Shown piece by piece: positions 4,187-53,667 of a stretch of 64,000 nucleotides of DNA; position 1 is the first letter of the stretch, and the number at the start of each line of letters is the position of its first letter. The stretch covers positions 5,518,001 to 5,582,000 of the forward strand of contig NC_088711.1 of the NCBI RefSeq assembly GCF_963576615.1, in the 5' to 3' direction. Under the pieces are notes generated by a model. That model ran no database searches, had not been told where the DNA came from, and saw nothing but the letters and a program-made list of their open reading frames with translations. The stretch comes from Watersipora subatra (taxonomy: Eukaryota; Bryozoa; Gymnolaemata; Cheilostomatida; Watersiporidae). A program made the position numbers and the translations under genes.

Positions 4187-4202
4187 CTAGTTATATTATG
4201 GT

Positions 4203-5546
4203 ATGAAAATTGCAAGAATTAACCCTCTGTATAAAAAAGGAAACATAAATAAATGTGAAAATTATAGGCCTATCTCAGTTCTTCCAATATTTAGCAAAAT
4301 CACAGAAAAACTTATAAATTTCCAAATCATGGACTATCTTGAACGCAATAACATTCTAGACTCTAATCAATTTGGTTTTAGAAAAGGTATTGGAACAAGA
4401 GATGCAATTATTTCCTTTACAAACAAAACATTCCAAGCTTTTAACAAGGGAAATTGTGTTCTTGGTATATTTATAGATTTCAGCAAAGCATTTGATACCA
4501 TTGACCATGATATATTGTTATTAAAATTGAAGTCTATTAGTTTCAAATCAACAGCTATTAAATGGATAGAAAACTACTTAAAAGATCGGAGTCAAAGAAC
4601 AAAAATAAATACTACCCTTTCAGCACCACAAACTATAAAATGTGGTGTTCCTCAAGGATCTGTATTGGGTTCAACTTTGTTCCTAATATATATTAATGAC
4701 TTAGCATGTCAATTAAAAGTACTTTCACCAATATTGTATGCAGATGATACTAATCTTTTTTTTTAATCCAAAGACCTTCACAAGCAAATGCATTCAATAA
4801 ATGAAGACCTAAAAATCCTTCAGAGTTGGTGCAACCAAAATAAACTAACAATTAATTTCAACAAAACTTGCTACATTTTATTAAAAAACCCACAGAACTC
4901 GTACCACTTTGATGAACAATCTCTACTAATTAATGGTCATGCAATAAATAAATCTGACAATATAAAATTTTTGGGAGTACTTATTGACCCTCAGCTGAAT
5001 TGGAGCCATCATATATCCAAACTGTTAAAAGACTTTAGACCTTATGCTGGGTTGTTTTTTCGATTGTCTCAGTACCTCTCTAAGGATGTTTTGCTAATTC
5101 TGTACAATTCCTTCATCAATTCCAAACTCTCGTATTGTGTTGAGGCATGGGGAAATGCTCCAGACTGCTACTTAAACAAAATTAAAGTTTTTCAAAACCG
5201 TTTACTCAGAATAATTAACAAGAAAGCTTATGACTTTTCAGCTAATCCGCTATTCAACTTAAATAGAATTTTAACTATTAAAAAGTTATACAAATACAAA
5301 GTACTAATAAAAGCACACAACACATTTTACGAAACAAACAATAACAGGACGATAACACATTTAACTACTCGTCAAACACACATAAACCTAAAAATACCAT
5401 TGTTTAAATCAAAAGCTGGTCAATGTTGTTTGGATTATCAGGAGTCATTGCTATGGAATCTACTACCGGTTACTCTGCGTAAAATTGTAAATGCTAATTC
5501 TTTCAAAAATGAACTGAAGCGCTACCTCAGACAACCAGACGACTAA
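4203..5546 (+). pseudogene. 5'-truncated Jockey/CR1-like non-LTR retrotransposon reverse transcriptase
   Basis: The frame encodes a LINE reverse transcriptase without its endonuclease. Motifs in order are NYRPISVLP, FGFRKG, the catalytic DFSKAFDTIDH, GVPQGSVLG and YADDTNLFF. Thumb and C-terminal sequence follow, including FLGVLID and FKNELKRYLRQ. A TAA at 4764-4766, just after the YADD box inside a T-run, breaks the frame; translation resumes in the same frame at 4767. The 5' end of the element is missing from about 4200, as expected from incomplete target-primed reverse transcription. The copy is therefore dead. Assignment to the Jockey/CR1 grouping is by motif style and was not tested by phylogeny. 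Confidence 0.9.
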
Positions 5547-6197: not shown

Positions 6198-7930
6198 TCG
6201 TTGCACAAGTCTGAGTAATAATATTTATGAAATTGCAAAAAAATTTTGCTAGTTATCCTCTCCTGCTAGCAAATAGTAGGAGTTATTTTAGGATGAATAA
6301 ATCCTTGCATCATTTTAGAAACAGTCACTGTGCGCCGTTCCAGTTACGAGGATAGATTATGAGTTCAGAGGCTTTACTTCCAGTTTCTGGGTGTACGGAC
6401 TGCAGAGGAAAGTTTATGCTCCTGATTACCCACAGCAAAAGTGTTGTGGGTGTAACATCCTTTAGCACCTGCATAGTAAGTCCACATAAATTATTCCTTT
6501 GACGTAAAAAGGTTGTCTTTTGTGAGAAATGCAAAGTGTTTTTTGCTCAATATAAAATGCTTTAGCATATGCTTTTAAATAGAAACCATAATAAAAGACA
6601 ACAGTACCTTTAAATATTGGCAATGATAAATTGATAATCTTTTTTTAAATCATTTCCAAAGTTTTTAAATAGTTTAGTATAAGCTGCTATTAATTTGATA
6701 AATTTTTATGTTGAATTCAGCTAGTCTGGTAATAGGTAGCCACAAACTGATTGTGACTAAATATAAAAAGTAAACGATAAAAAACAATAATTTCTGTTTT
6801 TTAATCAGCTCAGAAGTTTTAAATACAAATACATGTATTTAGTCACAAACTGATTGTTTCTGTACAACTGATTGAAGGTAACATAAAAATCTAGTAAATT
6901 TACTGCTGATTCTATCGGGTCATCACAACGGGCCGTATTCAGCAGCAGCCTGTTAGTTAGTTGAAGCAGCCAAACTGTCTGTACAGTATGTGGTACGCAT
7001 AAGTTATAATCACTACAACAGAGCAGTACATCTGTTAATTCTGTAACATCCTGTTAGTTCTGCCTTTTTTGTTTTAGACAATGCAGAGGAAAGCTTTAGA
7101 TCTAAGGCAAAGCTTCTATTCTTTTATATAGATTTTTAGATTGTTACTTTTCTATATTTTTATTTATTAATTATGTTTTTGTAAAAATAACATTTTCAAA
7201 TTTTCTTTTGCTGAAGATTCTTTCAGTCATTGTCCAGTCCAATAAACTTTCGCTCATTACCCTTTCTTAATATGATTGCACCAAAGATATATACCTTCCA
7301 TCATGTACACATTGCTAAAGTTTAACACCACCTTTTGTTGCTCCTCCTGTCCCATTTATACTTACACTTGTTATAGCGCAATGTCCTGCAATAACAGATT
7401 GTGTTCTCTATGAATACCTAGACTGTACTATAGGAAGTGTTGCAGCTCTCATTGGCAAGTTCGGAGGTCTATGGCAAAAAATATTTGCGTGCACAACAAA
7501 AGATCTGTTAGTCGAAAGGAAAAGCTTTTATCGCTTTTAAAACAGCAAACTCATTTCATGACAGATTTTTTGTGCCGACATAGCTAAATACTGTCTAATT
7601 ATAAGCTGTAGCAGACATGACTTCAGCCTTTTACTGATACATGTATTAGGTTAGTTCTAGGCATGGCTCAGACAAAGCCATATGCTACATGAAGCTGTTA
7701 CAATTATATCATGTTTTGAAGCAAATTTTTAAAATTTAAATGAAGTATAAAGAAAAGACCATATGACGTCATTGCTAAAGCTCTGTAAAATATAGCTTTA
7801 GTTCTAACCATTAAACTAGCACTGACTGGGGGATCGCTCTTGTCTCCTTATTTTTCCTGTAACTGAATAGAGGTCTGGTCTCATTGCGGTCAGCTCAGGC
7901 AATGAGTCAACTCAGGAGTTTAAGATGCAC
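6198..7930. other. Intergenic, no gene recognised
   Basis: AT-rich sequence with only short, unsupported ORFs on either strand. The longest (6325-6534, minus) has no recognisable motif. Confidence 0.6.
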
Positions 7931-7944
7931 AATGAAGTGTCAAG

Positions 7945-8165
7945 GTGATCTTTACTGTAATAAGAGCCGTGTCTGTCTGTCCAAAGCTACACTTTGAGAT
8001 CAGAAAAAACGCGACATACAAGAATTGAACTCTGGTATCCGGCTTTGCGGCCAGGCTCACTACCGACTGCCCGACTGGACCACTTTGCAGCATCATGGAA
8101 TAACTGTGCACATAGTTATTACACATGATGATCTCTCACAACACATGATACTGCCAGCGTACTAG
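7945..8165 (-). mobile_element. tRNA-related SINE, copy 1
   Basis: Read on the minus strand, a leader with ATCATGTGTAATAACTATG precedes a tRNA-like body. The body has an A-box-like GGTCCAGTCGGGCAGTCGG and a B-box-like GAGTTCAATTC. A tail ends GGCTCTTATTACAG. The leader and tail recur at 19935-20165, and the leader in degenerate form near 8300-8350. This supports a SINE family rather than a functional tRNA. Confidence 0.6.
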
Positions 8166-9351: not shown

Positions 9352-12300
9352 ATGATGGTTCGGTATTTACAGGCTTTTTTTGGACTTTGTCTCCTTTTTG
9401 GTTTATCTGCATCTATTAGTGACAGCTGTATCTCGTGCATCGGCAAGGTAGATATATATTCATTTCAGAGAATCTAAGATATTCGCTAAGGGATCCTGTT
9501 TCATAGCTGAAGTAAAAGTACAGCTTTTATGTTTGATAGTCAGCAAAAATAGTACTTTACTTGTTGTGTTTTTCTCTTTTCTTCAAAATTTTATTTTTGT
9601 AGATTGTTGCAAACGAAAGGTTCAGTGACTAGTAAGATTCAAAACAAGAGGCGTATGTTAGTTAAAAATAAACTTGACATCATCGAATAAACAACTATGT
9701 GTACTTTACAGCAAACTAGTCGTTTGTAAACGGCTAGTAAATGTAAATGTGTTGGAATGGAGTTTATATTGGAGAGAAGTTTATATTGGAGAGAAGTTTA
9801 TATTGGAGAGAAGTTTATATTGGAGAGAAGTTTATATTGGAGAGAAGTTTATATTGGAGAGAAGTTTATATTGGAGAGAAGTTTATATTGGAGAGAAGTT
9901 TATATTGGAGAGAAGTTTATATTGGAGAGAAGTTTATATTGGAGAGAAGTTTATATTGGAGAGAAGTTTATATTGGAGAGAAGTTTATATTGGAGAGAAG
10001 TTTATATTGGAGAGAAGTTTATATTGGAGAGAAGTTTATATTGGAGAGAAGTTTATATTGGAGAGAAGTTTATATTGGAGAGAAGTTTATATTGGAGAGA
10101 AGTTTATATTGGAGAGAAGTTTATATTGGAGAGAAGTTTATATTGGAGAGAAGTTTATATTGGAGAGAAGTTTATATTGGAGAGAAGTTTATATTGGAGA
10201 GAAGTTTATATTGGAGAGAAGTTTATATTGGAGAGAAGTTTATATTGGAGAGAAGTTTATATTGGAGAGAAGTTTATATTGGAGAGAAGTTTATATTGAA
10301 GAGAAGTTTATATTGGAGAGAAGTTTATATTGGAGAGAAGTTTATATTGGAGAGAAGTTTATATTGGAGAGAAGTCTATATTGGAGAGAAGTTTATATTG
10401 GAGAGAAGTTTATATTGGAGAGAAGTTTATATTGGAGAGAAGTTTATATTGGAGAGAAGTTTATATTGGAGAGAAGTTTATATTGGAGAGAAGTTTATAT
10501 TGGAGAGAAGTTTATATTGGAGAGAAGTTTATATTGGAGAGAAGTTTATATTGGAGAGAAGTTTATATTGGAGAGAAGTTTATATTGGAGAGAAGTTTAT
10601 ATTGGAGAGAAGTTTATATTGGAGAGAAGTTTATATTGGAGAGAAGTTTATATTGGAGAGAAGTTTATATTGGAGAGAAGTTTATATTGAAGAGAAGTTT
10701 ATATTGGAGAGAAGTTTATATTGGAGAGAAGTTTATATTGGAGAGAAGTTTATATTGGAGAGAAGTTTATATTGGAGAGAAGTTTATATTGGAGAGGAGT
10801 TTATGTTGGAGAGAAGTTTATATTGGAGAGAAGTTTATATTGGAGAGAAGTTTATATTGGAGAGAAGTTTATATTGGAGAGAAGTTTATATTGGAGAGAA
10901 GTTTATATTGGAGAGAAGTTTATATTGGAGAGAAGTTTATATTGGAGAGAAGTTTATACTGGAGAGAAGTTTATATTGAAGAGAAGTTTATATTGAAGAG
11001 AAGTTTATATTGGAGAGAAGTTTATATTGGAGAGAAGTTTATATTGGAGAGAAGTTTATATTGGAGAAAAGTTTATATTGGAGAGAAGTTTATATTGGAG
11101 AGAAGTTTATATTGGAGAGAAGTTTATATTGGAGAGAAGTTTATATTGGAGAGAAGTTTATATTGAAGAGAAGTTTATATTGGAGAGAAGTTTATATTGG
11201 AGAGAAGTTTATATTGAAGAGAAGTTTATATTGAAGAGAAGTTTATATTGAAGAGAAGTTTATATTGGAGAGAAGTTTATATTGGAGAGAAGTTTATATT
11301 GGAGAGAAGTTTATATTGAAGAGAAGTTTATATTGAAGAGAAGTTTATATTGGAGAGAAGTTTATATTGGAGAGAAGTTTATATTGGAGAGAAGTTTATA
11401 TTGGAGAGAAGTTTATATTGGAGAGAAGTTTATATTGGAGAGAAGTTTATATTGGAGAGAAGTTTATATTGGAGAGAAGTTTATATTGGAGAGAAGTTTA
11501 TACTGGAGAGAAGTTTATATTGAAGAGAAGTTTATATTGGAGAGAAGTTTATATCGGAGAGAAGTTTATACTGGAGAGAAGTTTATATTGAAGAGAAGTT
11601 TATATTGAAGAGAAGTTTATATTGGAGAGAAGTTTATATTGAAGAGAAGTTTATATTGAAGAGAAGTTTATATTGGAGAGAAGTTTATATTGGAGAGAAG
11701 TTTATATTGGAGAGAAGTTTATATTGGAGAGAAGTTTATATTGGAGAGAAGTTTATATTGGAGAGAAGTTTATATTGGAGAGAAGTTTATACTGGAGAGA
11801 AGTTTATATTGAAGAGAAGTTTATATTGAAGAGAAGTTTATATTGGAGAGAAGTTTATATTGGAGAGAAGTTTATATTGGAGAGAAGTTTATATTGGAGA
11901 GAAGTTTATATTGGAGAGAAGTTTATATTGGAGAGAAGTTTATATTGGAGAGAGGTTTATATTGGAGAGAAGTTTATATTGGAGAGAAGTTTATATTGAA
12001 GAGAAGTTTATATTGGAGAGAAGTTTATATTGGAGAGAAGTTTATATTGAAGAGAAGTTTATATTGAAGAGAAGTTTATATTGGAGAGAAGTTTATATTG
12101 GAGAGAAGTTTATATTGGAGAGAAGTTTATATTGGAGAGAAGTTTATATTGGAGAGAAGTTTATATTGGAGAGAAGTTTATATTGGAGAGAAGTTTATAT
12201 TGGAGAGAAGTTTATATTGGAGAGAAGTTTATATTGGAGAGAAGTTTATATTGGAGAGAAGTTTATATTGGGGAGAAGTTTATATTGGAGAGAAGTTTAT

Positions 12301-15300
12301 ATTGGAGAGAAGTTTATATTGAAGAGAAGTTTATATTGGAGAGAAGTTTATATTGGAGAGAAGTTTATATTGAAGAGAAGTTTATATTGGAGAGAAGTTT
12401 ATATTGGAGAAAAGTTTATATTGGAGAGAAGTCTATATTGGAGAGAAGTTTATATTGGAGAGAAGTTTATATTGAAGAGAAGTTTATATTGGAGAGAAGT
12501 TTATATTGGAGAAAAGTTTATATTGGAGAGAAGTTTATATTGGAGAGAAGTTTATATTGGAGAGAAGTTTATATTGGAGAGAAGTTTATATTGGAGAGAA
12601 GTTTATATTGAAGAGAAGTTTATATTGGAGAGAAGTTTATATTGGAGAGAAGTTTATATTGGAGAGAAGTTTATATTGAAGAGAAGTTTATATTGGAGAG
12701 AAGTTTATATTGGAGAGAAGTTTATATTGAAGAGAAGTTTATATTGGAGAGAAGTTTATATTGGAGAGAAGTTTATATTGAAGAGAAGTTTATATTGAAG
12801 AGAAGTTTATATTGGAGAGAAGTTTATATTGGAGAGAAGTTTATATTGGAGAGAAGTTTATATTGGAGAGAAGTTTATATTGGAGAGAAGTTTATATTGG
12901 AGAGAAGTTTATATTGGAGAGAAGTTTATATTGGAGAGAAGTTTATATTGGAGAGAAGTTTATATTGGAGAGAAGTTTATATTGGAGAGAAGTTTATATT
13001 GGAGAGAAGTTTATATTGGAGAGAAGTTTATATTGGAGAGAAGTTTATATTGGAGAGAAGTTTATATTGGAGAGAAGTTTATATTGGAGAGAAGTTTATA
13101 TTGGAGAGAAGTTTATATTGGAGAGAAGTTTATATTGGAGAGAAGTTTATATTGGAGAGAAGTTTATATTGAAGAGAAGTTTATATTGGAGAGAAGTTTA
13201 TATTGGAGAGAAGTTTATATTGAAAAGAAGTTTATATTGAAGAGAAGTTTATATTGGAGAGAAGTTTATATTGGAGAGAAGTTTATATTGGAGAGAAGTT
13301 TATATTGGAGAGAAGTTTATATTGGAGAGAAGTTTATATTGGAGAGAAGTTTATATTGGAGAGAAGTTTATATTGGAGAGAAGTTTATATTGGAGAGAAG
13401 TTTATATTGGAGAGAAGTTTATATTGGAGAGAAGTTTATATTGGAGAGAAGTTTATATTGGAGAGAAGTTTATATTGGAGAGAAGTTTATATTGGAGAGA
13501 AGTTTATATTGGAGAGAAGTTTATACTGGAGAGAAGTTTATATTGAAGAGAAGTTTATATTGGAGAGAAGTTTATATTGGAGAAAAGTTTATATTGGAGA
13601 GAAGTTTATATTGGAGAGAAGTTTATATTGGAGAGAAGTTTATATTGGAGAGAAGTTTATATTGGAGAGAAGTTTATATTGGAGAGAAGTTTATATTGAA
13701 GAGAAGTTTATATTGGAGAGAAGTTTATATTGGAGAGAAGTTTATATTGAAGAGAAGTTTATATTGAAGAGAAGTTTATATTGGAGAGAAGTTTATATTG
13801 GAGAGAAGTTTATATTGGAGAGAAGTTTATATTGGAGAGAAGTTTATATTGGAGAGAAGTTTATATTGGAGAGAAGTTTATATTGGAGAGAAGTTTATAT
13901 TGGAGAGAAGTTTATATTGGAGAGAAGTTTATATTGGAGAGAAGTTTATATTGGAGAGAAGTTTATATTGGAGAGAAGTTTATATTGGAGAGAAGTTTAT
14001 ATTGGAGAGAAGTTTATATTGGAGAGAAGTTTATATTGGAGAGAAGTTTATATTGGAGAGAAGTTTATATTGAAGAGAAGTTTATATTGGAGAGAAGTTT
14101 ATATTGGAGAGAAGTTTATATTGAAGAGAAGTTTATATTGGAGAGAAGTTTATATTGGAGAAAAGTTTATATTGGAGAGAAGTCTATATTGGAGAGAAGT
14201 TTATATTGGAGAGAAGTTTATATTGGAGAGAAGTTTATATTGGAGAGAAGTTTATATTGAGAGAAGTTTATATTGGAGAGAAGTTTATATTGGAGAGAAG
14301 TTTATATTGGAGAGAAGTTTATATTGGAGAGAAGTTTATATTGGAGAGAAGTTTATATTGAAGAGAAGTTTATATTGAAGAGAAGTTTATATTGGAGAGA
14401 AGTTTATATTGGAGAAAAGTTTATATTGGAGAGAAGTTTATATTGGAGAGAAGTTTATATTGGAGAGAAGTTTATATTGGAGAGAAGTTTATATTGGAGA
14501 GAAGTTTATATTGGAGAGAAGTTTATATTGGAGAGAAGTTTATATTGGAGAGAAGTTTATATTGAGAGAAGTTTATATTGGAGAGAAGTTTATATTGGAG
14601 AGAAGTTTATATTGGAGAGAAGTTTATATTGGAGAGAAGTTTATATTGGAGAGAAGTTTATATTGGAGAGAAGTTTATATTGGAGAGAAGTTTATATTGG
14701 AGAGAAGTTTATATTGGAGAGAAGTTTATATTGGAGAGAAGCAACTGTTTTAATATAATATGCTGACAGGTTGAAGGTGGAGGACGAGGATGCAATTGGG
14801 ATGTTAATTCAAACTCCTGTGGAAAATATCAAATCAAGCTGCCCTACTGGATTGACTGCTATAGACCAGGCTCCAGTAAGTCTACACTCTACAGCAACAC
14901 AACTTATATCTATTGCGCTGATTGCATTATACCAGACAAATGGGAAAATATTTACATAAAAGAATTCCATGTAATTTCTAATTTTCTTACAAATTGAAGC
15001 CATCAGCTTTTTTATGGGAATGAAAAGATTGTTACAATTTTTGTTGCATACTACAAAAGTTTTTCATTTATTTAAACATTACATTTGAAAGCTAAATGCT
15101 ATAGCCGATTTACCTAGATATGTGTTTAGTAAATAATATGAAATAATACATGCCGTGTTACTCTTGTATCGAGATTCTTTCAAAATGCTGCTTTTATTTT
15201 CACCAAGTTTAATAAGTTTCACCAAGAAAAGTTAATAAGTTTACCTCAAAACATTGAAGAGTTTTTATGAAACTCTTTGTTAGCTTGGAGCAGTTCAATT

Positions 15301-15555
15301 AGCAATTTATTGAACATCTATAAGAGATTGCTTATTTTTACAGCGTGGCAAGCTTGTGCAGGAGATGACAACTGTGCTAAGAAATGTATCAGAGCTTATA
15401 TGAGCCGTTATGCTAAACTGTGTGCCAACGATCTGCATAAGAGTATTGGTGATTTAACCTGCCAAGACTTTGGAAGACTGCACAATGGAGGACCCAGAGG
15501 CTGCAGCAATTCTAACACAGACATCTATGTCAGAATGATGAATCAAAAATGCTAG
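9352..15555 (+). CDS. Invertebrate-type (i-type, destabilase-like) lysozyme, secreted
   Basis: Three exons: 9352-9447, 14770-14875 and 15344-15555 (stop TAG). Phases match (0, then 1), giving 137 aa. Residues 1-20 (MMVRYLQAFFGLCLLFGLSA) form a signal peptide. The mature domain carries the i-type signatures KVE, WDVNSNSCGKYQIK, PYWIDC, WQACAGDDNC, CIRAYMSRYA and FGRLHNGGPRGC. The expected catalytic Glu (KVE) and Asp (NWD) are both present. The enzyme hydrolyses peptidoglycan and, in some relatives, isopeptide bonds; the likely role is extracellular antibacterial defence or digestion. Two cysteines usual in the family are absent together: CIC reads CIG, and the following ES-G-C reads EGGG. A short deletion follows. 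Intron 1 (5,322 bp) is almost entirely a 17-bp satellite. The start was chosen as the upstream of two tandem ATGs ahead of the signal peptide. Confidence 0.93.
9759..14741 (+). repeat. 17-bp satellite array, about 293 copies, inside lysozyme intron 1
   Basis: The consensus unit GGAGAGAAGTTTATATT repeats without interruption for about 4,983 bp. The + strand of the consensus contains no C. Common variants are GGA to GAA, ATATTGG to ATACTGG, GAGAG to GAAAAG, GTTTA to GTCTA, and two 16-bp units (14257-14260 and 14562-14565). The consensus has no stop in any + frame, so three long phantom ORFs arise (ERSLYWREVYIGEKFIL per 51 bp). The GAA variant introduces TGA in one frame. The array starts 311 bp after the exon-1 donor and ends 28 bp before the exon-2 acceptor AG. 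Confidence 0.98.
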
Positions 15556-23100: not shown

Positions 23101-23534
23101 GTGTTTAGCAACTGAGTAGAGATACCGGTAGCTGATTTTCTGTCTTTACACCGTAGGCATAAAATATTTCAAGTCTGTTATGTATTTTCTGTTAAGCAGT
23201 AAACCTCACAACATTCTACCAGAAATGTTGTTAGTGCATAATTATGTGAGTGTTTGCCGTTCGGTGGCGGTTACATCCAAGTCCACCTGTATAACAATAA
23301 TCATAATTACATGTACCCCACGCGTATGGCATTGCTAGGATTGGGAGTTGTCTTTCAAGTAAAAATATACTGCAAATTAAAAGCGGCCCAACCTAACTCG
23401 CTAGCAATTTTCGTTTACGTGACAGTGTTGACCGATAGCTACGCTAACACGAACCGATAAAAATAGGCAAAATCTGTTGGCTCGTGGGTTATACCTAAGG
23501 CTTACATGCTTCGTAGGAACAGTTAGAGTTAGGC
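23101..23534. other. Upstream flank of ASTE1
   Basis: No gene seen. It presumably carries the ASTE1 promoter and 5' UTR. Confidence 0.5.
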
Positions 23535-26500
23535 ATGGGGGTGCGAAGTTTTTCAAGCTTTATTAACGACAATGCTTCTACACTTCTTGTGTCACAAGAG
23601 CTGAAAGACACTTCCTTAATTATTGACGGTTATAACATTTTACACGAATTATACTATTTTAGTCCAGCTAATACTACGTACGGTGGCGACTATGATATAT
23701 TTTCTAAATCTATTGAAACATTCTGCAAGAGGCTGAGCATAAACAATATCAATCCGTTCTTTGTATTTGACGGTGCTAGTGAGCTTCACGATTTGAAGTT
23801 TCACACTGGTTTGGAGCGTGCTCAGGAAAGAATACATTTGGCTAATTTATCTAGTCATAGGAAAAGAACTAAGATTCTACCATGCCTCGCATTCAGGGTA
23901 TGTACCGACTCAGCAAGTCCGCTTTGATTGTTTTGATATAGCTTTACAGGTACGCAGTCTCACAGTTATTGTTGTGTTTGTTTAAATTGTTTTTTGTTGT
24001 AAACTAGCCATCTAAAACTTAGCCATTCCAGTTAGGCGCGAAATATTCTTTGTCCTATTAGACAGTGATAGGAAGCCTTACTTTTCATACGTAGGCCTAC
24101 GGCGTGTTGGTCTTATGCTCCTTACGTAACTATGTTATATCATGTTTATCAATTCTCTTTGTTTCGTCTGTTGAAATGTTACGTCATAGTTGTATGTTTT
24201 GGTACATTAACCCCCACACTGAGATACCACAAATAACAGATATTACATAAATAGACTAATGGAGAATGGCATTCGGTGGTTTCTGAGATAGCTTTTAATA
24301 TATAGGTGTAACGTATCAAACTTTAGTCTTTTATTAAGAATGTATAATCATAGTATTAGCTCATATTTGACTAATTGTTGTTGTATTTTAGAAACGATTA
24401 ACTAATCCAGTTTTAATTTAATAATTTTGCCAATGTTTTGTCTTTTAGGGAAGATTTTTTTCGTGGTTATGCCACAGATCATGATGTTGTTGCTGCCATT
24501 TATTAATATACCGGTGTCTGCAGGCATGCATTGACAAGCTAAGGGAGTTGAATGTCCCATTTTGTGTTTGTGACCATGAAGCAGACCAACAGTTGGCAAG
24601 TCTTGCCCGCGAATGGAATTGTCCACTGGTCAGCAATGATACAGATTTCCTGCTATTCGACTTGCCAGGAGGTGTGATATCTGTTCAGAATCTAAACCTG
24701 CCGGATATCTTGGATAAATCGGCGAGGTCTGGATGAACCAAACTTTTTTTCACTATTAAAACTTATATTGATATAAGAAAACAATTGTGTTGTGGATTTA
24801 AAAGGTTTTTATGATAGAACGGGAGAAAAAATACTAGTGATAATCACATGAGTTGATTAGAAGGTAAAAGTCTGTGGCTGCAGGTACTAAGTGGTGGATG
24901 TATATTGTTGTAGTGCTGATGACAAGCTCTATGCGAGAATTTACCATAATAGGACTCTTCTGGAACTCTATGATATCAAACCACGAAACCTTCCTCTGCT
25001 GGCTGTTATTTGTGGAAATGACTCATTTCCAAGCAACAAAATGATTCGCTTTAGGAGGCACATTAATCGTAGCAAATCAGACTCCATGGATATAGCCAAA
25101 TACCTCCGCTGGCTTGCAAATGTAAGTCAGTCTTGTTAAGAGCTGTATTAGTTTTATGTTACTTGTACTTGAGCAGTTTTTAGGATGGATGTATTTAAAA
25201 TTGTAAATCGTTTTACCTCCTATTCTATACACATGAGATAAGAAAACTCGGGTGAAGACTAGTGTGAACCCTCCTATTCTATACACATGAAATAAGAGAA
25301 CTCGGGTTAACCCCAGTTCTATGGGTTCATTACCCGAGGCTAATGTGTACCCTCCTATTCTATAAACATAAGATAAGAAAACTCAGGTGAAGGCTATTGT
25401 GTACATTATAAATATTACAAAACTTGCTAAATATATAAGATGGTAAAGTTTAAACATATCTTGTGCAGCTGACCTTTTGGCTATAAGAATTGTAAGGAAT
25501 TTTTACAAGACAACCTAGTATGGTTAAAAAATGAATAGATTCTACAGGAGAATTGTTAGCACTTTGGTTGTGATCGTATTCTTAACTATGGAACACAGGC
25601 TTCTCATCACCCATAGATGATAGAATGCCTATTATACTCGGTAGAAGCTGTCAAAGCTTTTCACACTATCACGCTTGAGGACACTCGTCGTAAGCACCTG
25701 ACTTCAGCTACAGGTGTTTCTTGTATTGCTTGCCGTCTGTTTCAGTACGCGACATTAGATTGCGCTGTGACTGCCTTGATGCTTCTTTGTGGTCCGATTG
25801 ACAAAGACAGACAGAGGTCACGTGTGATGAAAACTGTGGAAGCATACAATTCCTATACAAATCATGTAGGGCCTTACTTCCTCACTGGCAAGGTATACCT
25901 CATCGGGAACTTACTTTTATTATAACTTTTAATTTTTATCACAGTTACATTATACTTATATGCTGTACAATTATTATTTTGATAGTTTTAAGTCCCAGTA
26001 GAATTGCATCGCACACAATTTTATGTTGTCTTCATGTTAAAAATGGGCAATTGAAGATATAATAATAACATGACTTATTTATATATTTGATAATTTATCT
26101 TGAGCTATCATGCCCAGCTTGCACTAGTCCTTTTAGAATCCACAGTTTAAAACTAAAAGAGGACGCTATGAAGCACTGTTTGATACCATTTATAGCACTG
26201 TAACTATGTGAAAGAGAGCTGCGTAAATATGTATTCATTTTACTAAAGCGAAATTTTCGAGAGATTTTGGACATAAGATGTAGCAAATTACTTCGAATGT
26301 TGAATATTTGCTCAAATTGGAATGTTTCTAGGTTGAGCTAATCATTAGTCGAGGTTTGACTGCATTAGGTGTGCTCTAAATTTATGTGCTCATTTATAAT
26401 AATATTTGCTAGGTCGGTGTTGCCATTCTATGGTCTTAAGGCTAACTCTGCTGAACCAATATGTTGTTTACTAGCTATATATTTTTTATTGCAACAAAAT

Positions 26501-29500
26501 GAGGTAAAACTACAGCAGCCACTTGTGAAAGGTTTGTGAAGTGTACTGCTGCCAACCAAATGTTTAGTTTCCTTTCTAACGCTAGTTCATTGCATATCAA
26601 TTTTCGACATCGCCATTACTGGGGTATATTAAAATTGTTATTATTGTCTGACATATGACACATTTTTCTGTCAGTTTTTTTGAGCATCTACTTTCAATCT
26701 TCAGATAAAAAGTCCTATCTAGGATGGTTCCAGAAACGCAGCATACATGTAATTATCACTAGAGCAACAAACTGCAGATGCCATCACAAAATTGCTGTTA
26801 CAGCTGCTAACGGGGAGATGACTTGTTTGCTAGGCTAAAATCCCAGACAAGTGTTTTGGTCATTATACATTCATATGCTAGTAATTATTCCTCAGCATGT
26901 AAACTTCATGTAGACATGTTTCTATGCACACTGAGAGTGTTTAAAGGACCGTACACGTACACACTATCGTTCAAATCGACGATTAGCTGTGCGATTGACC
27001 GTCATTTTGCGACCAACGTAATCGTTGCTAGCGATGATGCGATGGACTTTCAACATGTTGAACTTTGACACCGATGATCGCAACTATTAGCATCTTGATT
27101 GGCTGTTTGTTGACCGCTTCGGATCCAATTTCAACAGTTATGATGATTTGTGTCAATTCATATTTGCAAGCATTGCTAAGAACTACGCTCGTGATGAATT
27201 GCATCTATAATTACATCTATTGAATAATCTATATATATATTTCTCAAAGTGTGCCCTTATGTGTGCATTCCGGCTATAGCTATTAAAATCTTGGAATAAA
27301 AAATACGTACCGAAGAAGATTTGATTTCAGACTCTACCGTTCACCAGTCTGTCCCCTACCCAATAGGCCACAGAGAATGAGTTGATAGCATGCCCATATA
27401 AGTTGCTATATGGGAGCATATACCCAGCGGCTTTGCATACCACGCAAGGTGATTGCATAAGTAAGTGATTGTCATTAGTTAGCTTACTAAAAATTTTCCA
27501 ATGGCATTCTGCCAAGCTAATAGACAGTGGTAGGCAACTCTCATTACTTCTCATTGTTTATAAGCTGATTTTTAATACTCTGAGTAACTGTAACACAACT
27601 AGTCAGATAATTAAAAGATAACAAAAAGACTCGAGATGTCACCAATACAATTTCGTAATGTGTAATTGGTTGTTAGCGATTAGCTGTACCAATTGCTCAT
27701 AGTGTGTACACCTTATCGTTGGTGATGACGCAAAAATAGCTAACCGTTGTAGTCCATCGCTCAGCTAAACGTTGATTTGAGCGATGTGTATAGGCCTTAA
27801 CACTTGTAGAGAGCCCGCTCTCTGTCTTTAGGTATAGTGAGACACATCATATGTGCAGTTAATGTAAAAGAAGTGATAAAATTTGGCCTTGACATATTCT
27901 TAGCATAGATACCAGTGTCAAGCCATGGGTGCTCGTGCATCCCTGATTATATTGTATGGACGCTGTGGAGCTGACAACAGAGCGATGTAGCTTTTGTGTG
28001 TTCATTGTCAATAGTGCACCTTATGTGATGCTTCGGCTAGTTTATGCCATTTGCTCGCGCGAGAAAATTCAGGTGCAGTCCTCGAGTATCAGCTGTCATA
28101 TTGTGAACATTTCTTAGTGTCTTTTTGCAGTACATTATCACAGTTATACACCGCTGTCGTTCAGTACATTACCACAGTTACACAGCTCTGTCGCTCAGTA
28201 CATTACTACAGTTACACAGCTCTGTTCTTAATTACATTACCGCAGTTACACAGCTCTGTTGTTCAGTACATTACCACAGTTACACAGCTCTGTTGTTTAG
28301 TACATTACTACAGTTACACAGCGCTGTCGCTCAGTACATTACCACAGTTACACAGCTCTGTTGTTCAGTACATTACCACAGTTACACAGCTCTGTCGGTC
28401 TGTACATTACCACAGTTACACAGCTCTGTCGGTCTGTACATTACCACAGTTACACAGCGCTGTCGGTCTGTACATTACCACAGTTACACAGCGCTGTCGG
28501 TCTGTACATTACCAGTTACACAGCTCTGTCGGTCTATACATTACCACAGTTACACAGCTCTGTTGTTCAGTACATTACCACAGTTACACAGCGATGTCGG
28601 TCTGTACATTACCACAGTTACACAGCTCTGTCACTCAGTACATTACCACAGTTACACAACGCTGTCGGTCTGTACATTACCACAGTTACACAGCACTGTC
28701 GTTTAGTACATTACCACAGTTACACAGCGCTGTCGGTCTGTACATTACCACAGTTACACAGCGCTGTCGGTCAGTACATTACCACAGTTACACAGCTCTG
28801 TCGGTCTATACATTACCACAGTTACACAGCTCTGTTGTTCAGTACATTACCACAGTTACACAGCGCTGTCGTTTAGTACATTACCACAGTTACACAGCGC
28901 TGTCACTCAGTACATTACCACAGTTACACAACGCTGTCGGTCTGTACATTACCACAGTTACACAGCGCTGTCGGTCAGTACATTACCACAGATACACAGC
29001 TCTGTCGGTCTGTACATTACCACGGTTACACAGCTCTGTTGTTCAGTACATTACCACAGTTACACAGCGCTGTCGTTTAGTACATTACCACAGTTACACA
29101 GCGCTGTCACTCAGTACATTACCAGTTACACAGCGCTGTCGGTCTGTACATTACCACAGTTACACAGCTCTGTTGGTCTGTACATTACCACAGTTACACA
29201 GCTCTGTCGGTCTGTATTTTGTAGATTATGCACACTTCCACTCATCGCCTTCATGAAACCTTGCCTGAGCTCTTCTGGTCCCGCTACAGGTCAGCCTTAA
29301 TATCGAAAAGGTTAATGGAAGTTCTTTTCTTTCACCGAAGAGTCTTCGCGGTGCAAGTAAGCAGTAATTTCTCTATTTTTGTATGTGATTCATCGATTTT
29401 ATTAGTAGTTTTTGTAAAAATATATGAATATCTTGAGAGTTTTGGGAATATGTCCATTTATTTACCTACCATGCTATTGTAAATAATGACTTTACAGGAC

Positions 29501-32500
29501 CTCTGCTAGCAGCACGCATTCGCATGCTATAACACTTCTGTTGCTACTGTTAACATACTAGCACAGTTTTTCATCAGGCTGTTGATTTTTGTAATAAGTG
29601 TCAGCTCAAAGTTGGAGTTGTGACGCCATTTGGCTTGGTTCAGCTCTAAAGTTTATATAACACTGCATAAGTTTTCACACCTCTTCGGTAAAGTAGAGTA
29701 TATTTTATTTTGTGTGCTTGTTAGGTGAGTTCAAGATGTCATCTTTGAAACATGAAATACTTTTGTGTCAATGTCGTCTTGTTTATGGTGGAACTTACAT
29801 GCGGTATTAGATATATAGTGAATTCAAATAATAGTCAATTTGTGCTGAAACGGTTTTTTAATTAAAATTTCAGTTACCAAAAGCTGTGAATAGTTTAGTT
29901 TAAATCTTATGAAAATCAAATGATATTCATTCTGAAATGTGAAGCATTTATATGGCTGCAATCAAGTTTTACCAATTTATTAAACTTTTTTCTCATTTCC
30001 TATGATTATCTACAAATTATCTTTCCATCATTATTATCTTCTCCTGGTTGCTTAACATCACATAGAATACTACAATCCTTTCATCCATGTTATAAGCAGC
30101 TGGTCCTCAATCTAATGTGTAATTATTTTATCATTTGAGTACTAGATATCCCATCTCTTCTTGCACACTTTCTGTAGATGGAAGATTTGAAGTGCCCCAG
30201 TGCATGGCTCAGCTCTGCTTGTATCCGTCAACAAACCTATCAAATCCTTTCCGCTTCCAGTATGAGGAGCATTACCACAGTTTCTGAGTACGACAGACAT
30301 AACAAGTTGCTACTAAAACGGGTAGTGCCAGTGAACTATAACGTACCGAGAGAATGTATCACACTGGAAACGCTGTATGACCAATCCGTAGAGCAGAGAC
30401 TAAACCTTTTTTATAAAACTCTTGAAATCACGGATGAGATGGTGGCAGCTGGAGTCGTAACGCCAGATTCGCCAGACAGAAAGGACAATGACATACTCAC
30501 AGCGCTGATCATATTCTGGGTGAACCACTGTGAGCCTCAAAGTTGTAAAATGTAAGACACGTCAGTCAGAGTTTTATTAAGATTTTTATGACGAAATATC
30601 GTCATTGAGGCGTGTTAGGGGCACAGTATCTCCTGATATTGTTATGCTGAATGATTTGAAACATTTCAGTGCTTTGCTGATAATCTTTCAGTATGCAGTG
30701 TAAACTATAATCATATGTAACTGAATATTATATTTATGACAGATACAACCTTTCACAACCTGTAACTTGTGCAGACTCTTAACTGTTCGTCACAACTTCT
30801 AACCTTTGCGGACTCTCCACATAAATCATCAGCACATCATCCTAACTGTCTGTAACAGAGAATTTTTTGAGGCTCAACTATTGTCCATTCCTTTTATCTC
30901 TTCCCAGGCGCACGAACAATAACACATTTCCATATTCCTTTCAGCCACTTGATGTCCATTCTGGTCTGCGTTGTCAATCTCTCACTCATAGACGAGCACC
31001 TTAGCAAGCAGGACAGAGTTTGCAAGCAAGTTGAACGTCATTCACATGTGCCAACCCGGGACCAAAGACACGAGCTAGGCTTGGAAATGCCTGTACTTCA
31101 GGCTATGGCGCAGTTCCAAAGTGTGCTAAGGTACTAAAATACTCAAGTGATAGAGTTCTCTAGCGGGCATATGATCCTCAACGGCTGATGCACAATATTA
31201 CAGTTTTACGGGTAGACACTAAGTCTGTGTTTTGTTGCAGTGATGGTCTGGACTTATTGGGACTACTTGGCATCGACTTTAACATACGCTTGCATGAAAT
31301 ATTTAGTGGACGCTATGTGTACAACCTCGCCATTGAACTGAGTGCTCGAATAGACCCAGGACCATACTGCGAGGAACTGCTAGTGAGGGGCAGCGATTAC
31401 AGCAACCTTTTTAAAAGGTGACACTAATACACTAGTTGCTTTGCCATAATTTAACAGCTGCTCTTGTGCTAGCTCAGCAGTTAAGTAATACATACTATTA
31501 TATTCATTGCTTGCTCTATGAAACAACTGGTTCGCTTTTGCTTGAATGTCAAATTAATTTAAATTATATTTGTCAAATTACGCAAGATGTACACCTTTAG
31601 CCTCAGAGCCATAAAACGCAACAGCTTGCAGAATGTTAAATTCCTCCACCTATAATTACATATTTGTGTCTTTGGCAGTTGGTACCAGCTGATAGAAGAG
31701 AATGTGAAGGAGGGCTATTTGACGGTGATGGGCAACAATAAGGTTACTGCTGAGACAATCAGTAAAGCTGCTAAAAAACGGGTATGTTCTTGTGGTGGCA
31801 AAGCTGGCAAACTCCGTAACAAGCTAAAATACCTTTTCAGAAAGTTTTTAGATATATTTGTACATGTATCTCTTTCCAGTGCTATTAGCCAAATGCATGG
31901 CGTTGCAGAGGAATAGAATTATTACCTAGTGAATTTGAGTAACTTACCTGGAAAACTAGATCTTTACTAAAACAATAGTGTTTACAATAGTGATACCCGC
32001 ATTTTGGGCCAGCTTAACAAACGTTGCGCGAAACGGTCAACAGTGCTGATGATTGTTAAACCCAAGCAAGTGCTTTAAGCGTGAGTATCTTAACCAATGT
32101 AATGACTATTTGACCTGTGAATCTATTGTATGAAAGTGTAGCTTAATGGTTAATTTTTCTGCCTCAAGATCTGAAGATCCAGCGATCAAATTCAGTGCCG
32201 TGCAGATTGTTCATTGCTAGATTTTAATATCTATAACTGGACACATGGTTTGACAGAATGACAAACACTGAGATTTATATACCGTAAAACCTCTAATTGA
32301 ATGCCATGACGTTATATTTTCTAACCCTTTTTCTATAGTGGCAGTCAAATAGAGGTGGCATTCGAATAGATGCTGGTGTTGTATTTTTCAAATAGCTTGT
32401 CGAATTTTTGGAAGATAAATTAAGCCCTTTTACGCGCTTATATTTTGCCCACTCCTTCTGGTGGATCGACATTAAGCCTTTTGGATGCAATAAATCTGCT

Positions 32501-37917: not shown

Positions 37918-40390
37918 GCGAAGCTCCATTGTCAGAGTAGCCGATTGAAATTCAGCTAGCAACTTGTCTGAAGTGGCCATAGAGGCTACATAGGCTTTGA
38001 TGCTTTGTTCTTCCTCTTTCACCGTCTGCATCACACTTTTGAGTCCCCTATCGCCATCTTTCCTATCGAGATACAATCTAGTAGTATCAGATTTTGGATG
38101 GAGTGCTTCATGCATGGTCAGCAGTTTACGAGTTGCTATATTTGTTTCCTTGATGGCTTCCTCAGTCCACTTTATTATACCTATTGGATATCTTATTACT
38201 GGCAGTGCGTAGGTATTTATGGCCATGACTTGATTCCTGACATTGAGCAGGCTCCGTAGGACCTGCTGAAGGCGTTTGTATTCGGTAATGGCTTTGTCCC
38301 CATGGCATGATCCCCAAATACTTGTACCCTTCTTCTATATCTTTGATTGTACCATTTGGCATTCTTAGGCCATTTGTGACCATAGAATGGTCTTTCGTAA
38401 GAATTAGCCTTTCACATTTCTCAATACCGAAGGTCATTCCGATGTCCTTGCTGTATACCTGAGTGAGGTGTATTAGCAAATCAATGTCCCTTTCTTTGTT
38501 AGCGTACAGCTTGATGTATCCATGTAGAAGAGGTGGTTTATCTTGGTGCCACTGTTAAACTGGTACCCATATTGAGTCTTCTCCAGCATATTGCTTAGGG
38601 GGTTTAGGCATATGCAGAAGAGCAGCGGTAATAAAGAGTCACCTTGATAGATGCCTTGCTTAATTTTTACACTCGCCAGCTTTTTGCCATTAGCCTCCAG
38701 TTCCGTCTTCCATTTGGTCATTGACATCCTGATGAATGCCACAAGAGCAAGGTGAACTTTGTACATACTGAGGCACTTAATTGTCCAACTATGGGGAATT
38801 GAGTCATAGGTCTTTTTGTAGTCAATCCAAGCCATGGCAAGATTGGTATGCTTTCTCCTGCTGTCTTGACAGACCGTCCGATCCACCAGTAACTGATGTT
38901 TGGCTCCTCGGGTGTTGCGCCCAGTTTCTTTCTGAGCACTGGTCATATAGGTAGTGACTCATGTGCTCTTCCAGTTTGTCTGCAACTATTCCTGAAAGCA
39001 GTTTCCAGGTAGTGGGCAAGCACGTTATTGGTCGACAGTTTTTGGGAATCGGTCCCTGCTTTGGATCTTTCATCAGAAGTACAGTTCGTCCTTTGGTCAG
39101 CCATTCCGGATGGTCGCCTTCTTCTATTAGGCATTCCATCTGCTTAGCCATTCTAGTATGAAGTGATGTCAATTTCTTCAACCAGAAGGCTTGAATCATG
39201 TCATGGCCAGGTGCTCCCCAGTTCTTCATACTCTGCACTTGATGTCCACTTTGCTGATGGTGAGCCTTTGCTGAGCCACAGTGTGTTGGTGACTCTCTTT
39301 AAGCCTCTTCAGCCCATTTGCAGTGGTGTTATGAGTAGTCTCTTTCTCCCAGATGTCCTCCCAGAACTTTGAGGTGCTGGATCGGGGAGGATCTGACATT
39401 GGCCTCCGCAGTTCACCTTTGAACTGGGAATACACTCTAGATGGATTATTGATGAACAGTTTGTTCATTCTCTTGTTATCCCGCTCTTTGGTGTACCGCT
39501 TCAGTGTGCCGAGAGTGCTACTAACTGCTGTTTGGCAGATTTTAGAGCTCCTACTGTGGCTTCCCTTTCTGGACAATCCAAACTGTGGTTAGATCTCTCA
39601 GATCTCTCACTGAGCCTACTAACGTTTTTGCGCAAGAACTTGATTTTATTTTGTAGCCTCAGCTGCCAAGATGGAATGGCTTGAAGCCTTGTTGACAGTG
39701 GCTTAATACCCATCTCCTCCAAGACGACGGTTGCCGTACTGTAGATTAGGGCATTAGTCTCACTGATCGATCTAGTTGAGATCGACTCCAGTGCCAAGTT
39801 AATATCTTCTAACAGCTTCTTAGGTATGGCCTTGCTAGCTCTCCGTAGTGGTACCCTGCTTCCATAATCATTAGCAGCCGGCAACTTGTTGATGATATTT
39901 TCCGCAAGCTCGTTCATCCTTGGGTCAAGGTCAAAGTGCATGTCCTTTTCAGCTTATGAGTCAACACAAGATTGTGTATGTGTGACTGTGTGTGTTGATA
40001 TGCACTCCTAGTTGGTCGAGGTTACTTGGGTAAACTGTTACCTAATTTCATCTACCTCTAGTTCCAATATGAGGTGCCGCTTGATTATGTTACTCCTCTG
40101 AGCTACAAGTTGCTTAGCGGTAATTCAGGGCGCATGTTTATCCCATGTAGCCTCACGTTTAAGGTTCACTCATAAAGTAGCACTGCATGAGGTTCATGTT
40201 ATCAGTTTGAGTCCATTTCATCAGTTTTGAACCAGTAGCCCATTTTTCACTGCCTTGTCCTGGTTCAGATACTGGCAGTGCGGACCTTGTTTGACCTGGC
40301 GACGTCTGAGCCGGCATGGCTTTGGTTATTGCACTCATCATAGAGGTTGTAGACATACAAGCAAGGGTCTTGTCTAAGGACCACCAGAAG

Positions 40391-44801: not shown

Positions 44802-53667
<8,866 letters not shown>

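Follow-up and report, generated by a model that had tools for sequence, protein, structure and literature searches.

A 64,000-nucleotide stretch of the genome of the bryozoan Watersipora subatra (contig NC_088711.1, positions 5,518,001 to 5,582,000, assembly GCF_963576615.1; hereafter the window) contains a three-exon gene that encodes an i-type (destabilase-family) lysozyme, likely with an immune or digestive role, and whose first intron is filled almost entirely by a minisatellite with a 17-bp unit (Table 1). The predicted product, of 137 or 136 residues depending on which of two possible start ATGs is used, bears a PF05497 domain (Pfam search, E 5.6e-21, 75.4 bits vs a cut-off of 26.2) and matches four i-type lysozyme sequences in the PDB with E values from 3.7e-28 to 1.4e-26, which bears out the lysozyme assignment made in a first-pass annotation of the same DNA. 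In the best match (2dqa, E 3.7e-28), where the alignment begins at query residue 20, the predicted catalytic Glu (KVEGG) and Asp (NWDVNS) both align; in the clam lysozyme these catalytic residues are Glu18 and Asp30.

Lysozyme domains were sought across the whole assembly (783,720,542 bp in 239 contigs) and were found at six genomic places, the gene with the array included. Exons 1 and 2 are readable in four of the five other loci, and all four share the intron 1 junction, which lies between the lysine that ends CIGK or CLAK and a following V-E or I-E; at the fifth, on contig C1, exon 1 was not found. Because four paralogues split at the same codon junction, the border between exon 1 and intron 1 is the family's own, and the intron borders first proposed for this gene (9448-14769) gain support accordingly. 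Intron 1 of the four readable paralogues measures 138, 112, 884 and 1,663 bp, and no such 17-bp array is present in any of them.

The array was delimited with Tandem Repeats Finder (TRF) at a period of 17, with 293.1 copies and 98% matches, and when split unit by unit it resolves into 293 units of AGTTTATATTGGAGAGA, head to tail. The estimates of the first-pass annotation, about 293 units and 94% of intron 1, are thus reproduced (93.6% here); its placement of the array 28 bp before the acceptor also stands, while the start lies 313 bp after the donor and not 311. These unique segments, 313 bp on the 5' side and 28 bp on the 3' side, leave an intron of 341 bp without the array, compared with 5,322 bp with it: minisatellite growth can set intron size. 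Most units (233 of 293) are identical to the consensus, and the commonest variant, G12 to A, accounts for 38 more. Substitutions among units number 59, of ten kinds, and every one is a transition; two units each lack one base. The 31 units at the 5' end are identical, a run of a length found in 611 of 20,000 shuffles, which points to recent expansion there, an assembly effect being less likely, and the edge copy TTGGAATGGAGTTTATA may be a remnant of the seed from which the array grew. Variant units are non-random and copied in blocks, as is expected of slippage or unequal exchange. The best self-match block of variants lies at an offset of 103 units (reached in none of 300 shuffles, with the score weighted by unit frequency), the variant unit designated c is followed by variant a in five of five cases (0 of 20,000 shuffles), and adjoining pairs of a number 11 (64 of 20,000 shuffles).

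Genome-wide, where counts of repeats may be lower bounds, the exact dimer of AGTTTATATTGGAGAGA occurs 191 times in forward orientation and 0 times in reverse; 191 copies lie inside the array, and among the matches listed every one falls there. A backward control pattern gave 0 matches genome-wide, and the difference between 191 and 0 excludes chance. This search used the exact dimer, so that diverged copies elsewhere lie outside its reach; within the window, allowing three mismatches raised the count to 288 dimers, all within the array. The array is therefore, by exact dimer, a locus-specific minisatellite of tandem 17-bp units at one locus. Satellite DNA, understood as abundant, multi-locus or very long blocks, was rejected as a description, given that the genome-wide total of 191 exact dimers equals the number in this one 5-kb array, and the word satellite used in the first-pass annotation was too strong.

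Splice sites were scored with splice-site matrices. On this scale, the modelled sites of intron 1 score 5.39 (acceptor) and 5.98 (donor), and the 872 AG dinucleotides of the array peak at -0.15 and its 294 GT dinucleotides at 0.72, so the sense strand of the array offers no good competing splice site. The last AG of the array is at 14740-14741, which makes the 28-nt tail the AG-free zone before the acceptor, and the branch point is expected there, in line with the first-pass remark that branch point and polypyrimidine tract must fit into the short 3' tail or lie in the repeat; the best candidate is TTAAT, whose A14753 stands 16 nt from the acceptor. Two other roles for the array were considered and rejected. 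No frame of the consensus unit contains a stop, which gives long open frames on the sense strand, and such stop-free units make up 27% of random window 17-mers and 1.3% of shuffles of the unit; the commonest variant creates TGA, and the three frames of the array hold 18, 11 and 12 stops, which speaks against a coding array. RNA structure is equally unsupported, a 170-nt piece of array sense RNA folding worse than 200 of 200 shuffles (z +3.24), and no known RNA family was detected in the window at gathering score.

Table 1. Features of the lysozyme gene and its intronic array (positions in the window)
Feature	Position	Strand	Basis
Lysozyme exon 1, coding part: signal peptide to ...CISCIGK; ATGs at 9352 and 9355	9352..9447	+	Translation, PF05497, 2dqa alignment
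Intron 1 (modelled), phase 0, GTAGAT...GACAG, 5,322 bp	9448..14769	+	Junction common to four of five paralogous loci
Candidate 29-nt cryptic exon, frame-shifting	9603..9631	+	Acceptor-like AG 9601-9602 (6.9), donor-like GT 9632 (5.38)
Edge copy TTGGAATGGAGTTTATA	9752..9768	+	Differs from the unit at 3 positions in this register
Minisatellite, 293 x AGTTTATATTGGAGAGA	9761..14741	+	TRF, unit splitting, genome-wide exact-dimer count
Intron 1 tail, 28 nt: candidate branch point A14753, acceptor AG 14768-14769	14742..14769	+	Site scoring
Lysozyme exon 2 (VEGGGRGCNWDVNSNSCGKYQIK...)	14770..14875	+	Translation, PDB alignment
Lysozyme exon 3, stop TAG 15553-15555	15344..15555	+	Pfam, PDB alignment

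As the sense strand holds no good splice site, the simplest reading is that the array is tolerated and spliced out, and the best explanation of the locus, to which a probability of about 0.83 is given, is a locus-specific minisatellite grown by slippage or unequal exchange. In this scenario the minisatellite would have arisen within intron 1 of the i-type lysozyme gene and expanded to about 293 units by slippage and/or unequal exchange; it would be transcribed and then spliced out along with the rest of the intron, by way of the donor at 9448 and the acceptor in the 28-nt tail. The lack of a good competing splice site on the sense strand would explain its tolerance, and the array would be selectively near neutral. 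Several observations weigh against this explanation. The 9447/14770 junction is a modelled splice border, predicted from the sequence. The modelled acceptor has a mediocre score: outside the array, 364 of the window's 3,506 AG sites (the acceptor included) score at least as high, and it is surpassed by four acceptor-like sites of the unique 5' segment of the intron, at 9468, 9543, 9602 and 9711. With 243 copies of the purine-rich motif GGAGAGAAG in the array, neutrality is no more than presumed. Just 4.5% of shuffles of the unit are as splice-inert as the unit itself. A cruder test for copied blocks, based on arbitrary scores, was not significant (9.4 vs a shuffle maximum of 10.75, n=200). Size also counts here: no larger array was seen in the window or in a 200-kb sample of twenty 10-kb stretches, drawn from contig C1 only (between 1 and 41 Mb of its 79 Mb), all six sampled arrays of at least 1 kb fall in three of the twenty stretches (L036-L038, C1 33-39 Mb), and an array so long inside a gene may well be uncommon in this genome.

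Some of these observations would fit an array that influences lysozyme splicing or expression, as the intronic variable number tandem repeat (VNTR) of human ABCA7 does (PMC5954066), with purine-rich units binding splicing factors near the mediocre acceptor, and with allele length tuning the removal of the intron or the inclusion of the frame-shifting 29-nt exon at 9603-9631. Just 28 nt separate the array from that acceptor, and the cryptic acceptor 9602 and donor 9632 score well. Purine-rich sequences of the kind of GGAGAGAAG bind splicing activators. However, scores matching those of 9602 and 9632 are reached by 161 of 3,506 AG sites and 181 of 3,658 GT sites in the window under these matrices, so that such acceptor- and donor-like sites are frequent by chance, and the four readable paralogue introns lack the array. 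Selection for a splice-inert unit was also considered and finds no clear support, 24.8% of random window 17-mers being equally inert at both sites compared with the 4.5% of unit shuffles. An influence of this kind is thus unlikely, and its stronger form, in which a length-variable purine-rich minisatellite acts as a tuning element of an immune lysozyme, allele length setting splicing efficiency or cryptic-exon inclusion, is rather improbable. The array stands at a single locus with unique flanks, so length polymorphism and any effect on splicing are directly measurable; if length had an effect, this would be an invertebrate case comparable to the VNTR of ABCA7.

Other explanations concern what the array is rather than what it does. 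An assembly artefact, with a copy number made wrong by collapse or over-extension, could account particularly for the 31 identical 5' units, and the restriction of all 59 substitutions to transitions could reflect consensus error. Against this, contigs elsewhere in the assembly are of chromosome scale (66 and 79 Mb), the window contains no N, the variants return in ordered blocks, unlike random error, and 5 kb is within the span of long reads; an artefact is accordingly considered very unlikely. Tandem arrays occur in some mobile elements, and the locus could in principle be a local fragment of a satellite family dispersed through the genome, or of a Helitron-like element that is present in many copies and bears tandem repeats. 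This is judged very improbable, because the array accounts for the genome-wide count of exact dimers, exact searches of viral and prokaryote collections gave 0 matches to the repeat, and the flanks of the gene are not duplicated within the window. The unique flanks of the gene contain no repeats related to AGTTTATATTGGAGAGA. A minisatellite that grew in place and is tolerated within the intron remains the preferred explanation.

Arrays of this kind are known: lysozyme genes with tandem repeats in their introns have already been published. Among mussel g-type lysozyme genes, MGgLYZ1 carries one tandem repeat in its fourth intron and MGgLYZ2 carries three, all in its first, and flounder is cited in the same source as a similar case (PMC3448621). 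The Watersipora gene resembles these genes in the presence of tandem repeats within a lysozyme intron, but it is i-type rather than g-type and its intron is filled by the array (PMC3448621). Among the titles and abstract openings covered by a literature search, none reported an intronic tandem array in a lysozyme gene of the i-type. In kind and size, the nearest relatives are two human intronic VNTRs, in ABCA7 and CACNA1C. The VNTR of ABCA7 intron 18 has a 25-bp unit and a largest allele of 10,678 bp (about 427 units); it includes the donor, and its length correlates with exon 19 skipping and with expression (PMC5954066). Both arrays place hundreds of intronic copies right beside a splice site, but the ABCA7 array spans the donor, whereas the lysozyme array stops 28 nt before the acceptor (PMC5954066). 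The CACNA1C intron 3 repeat consists of 30-bp units over several kb, with enhancer activity reported in a review, and differs in that activity as well as in gene and position (PMC12026680). Minisatellites also lie in introns of Caenorhabditis elegans, where they, CeRep25B among them, are associated with alternative splicing; unlike the lysozyme array with its single locus, CeRep25B occupies many loci, and known splicing motifs are present in it (PMC4039745). The Drosophila Y genes kl-3 and kl-5 likewise have transcribed introns that are largely tandem repeat, but these are giant, consisting of megabases of simple satellite and tied to a special programme of expression, compared with 5 kb of single-locus repeat here (PMC6508621). 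In Daphnia pulex, introns are much poorer than the rest of the genome in repeats with units of more than 8 bp, which favours the view that such arrays are unusual in some animals (PMC3152781).

Within the Watersipora genome, intronic minisatellites are a habit, and the lysozyme array stands at the upper end of their size range. Tandem repeats as a whole are plentiful in this genome but unevenly spread. Those with a period of at least 10 cover 12.1% of the 200-kb sample, with a median of 4.5% per stretch, and the sampled arrays comprise 26 of at least 300 bp, 15 of at least 500 bp, six of at least 1,000 bp and one of at least 3,000 bp, although stretches of 10 kb cut long arrays and the 3-kb array is itself cut by a stretch end. 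The three stretches that hold all arrays of at least 1 kb are covered to 21%, 63% and 46% by such repeats and belong to a repeat-rich chromosome middle, perhaps pericentromeric; mean cover of the other 17 is 6.6%. In the window, repeats with a period of at least 10 cover 13.1%, or 5.7% of the remainder once the lysozyme array is set aside, and twelve hand-merged arrays of at least 100 bp cover 12.8%, the lysozyme array making up most of it. An ASTE1-like gene in the window has an unrelated array of 32 copies of a 34-bp unit (1,089 bp, 28128-29216) between two of its exons, and the lysozyme paralogue on contig C7 (31.991 Mb) has an unrelated 33-bp x 10 array of 337 bp in intron 1. The first-pass annotation had called the lysozyme array unusual, and this is right for its size, as the largest array seen, those of at least 1 kb falling in three of the twenty sampled stretches; it does not hold for intronic arrays as such, given those of the paralogue (337 bp), of the ASTE1-like gene (1.1 kb) and of lysozyme introns in other animals (PMC3448621).

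Near 31.99 Mb on C7 (L018, L019), two lysozyme-family genes adjoin and both have minisatellites in their introns, the second having seven copies of a 33-bp unit between its exons 2 and 3. Near 35.09 Mb on C1 (L016), a diverged lysozyme-family locus has a putative exon 2, matched weakly, with a 22-bp x 35 array (7248-8036 of the reverse complement) lying upstream of it. The ASTE1-like gene is represented by an open reading frame (ORF) with XPG_N at 23517-23927 and one with XPG_I_2 at 24485-24736, together with a weak XPG_I_2 match, below the cut-off, in the ORF at 30178-30555; the 34-bp unit of its array does hold splice-like sites (3.98 and 5.49). Elsewhere in the window, the ORF at 61224-61568 matches ArgoN (argonaute N-terminal, E 7.8e-10), that at 46720-47061 corresponds to a GMP reductase exon (PDB 2bzn, E 1.2e-10), and reverse-transcriptase ORFs (RVT_1) are located at 4191-5546 and 38473-38958.

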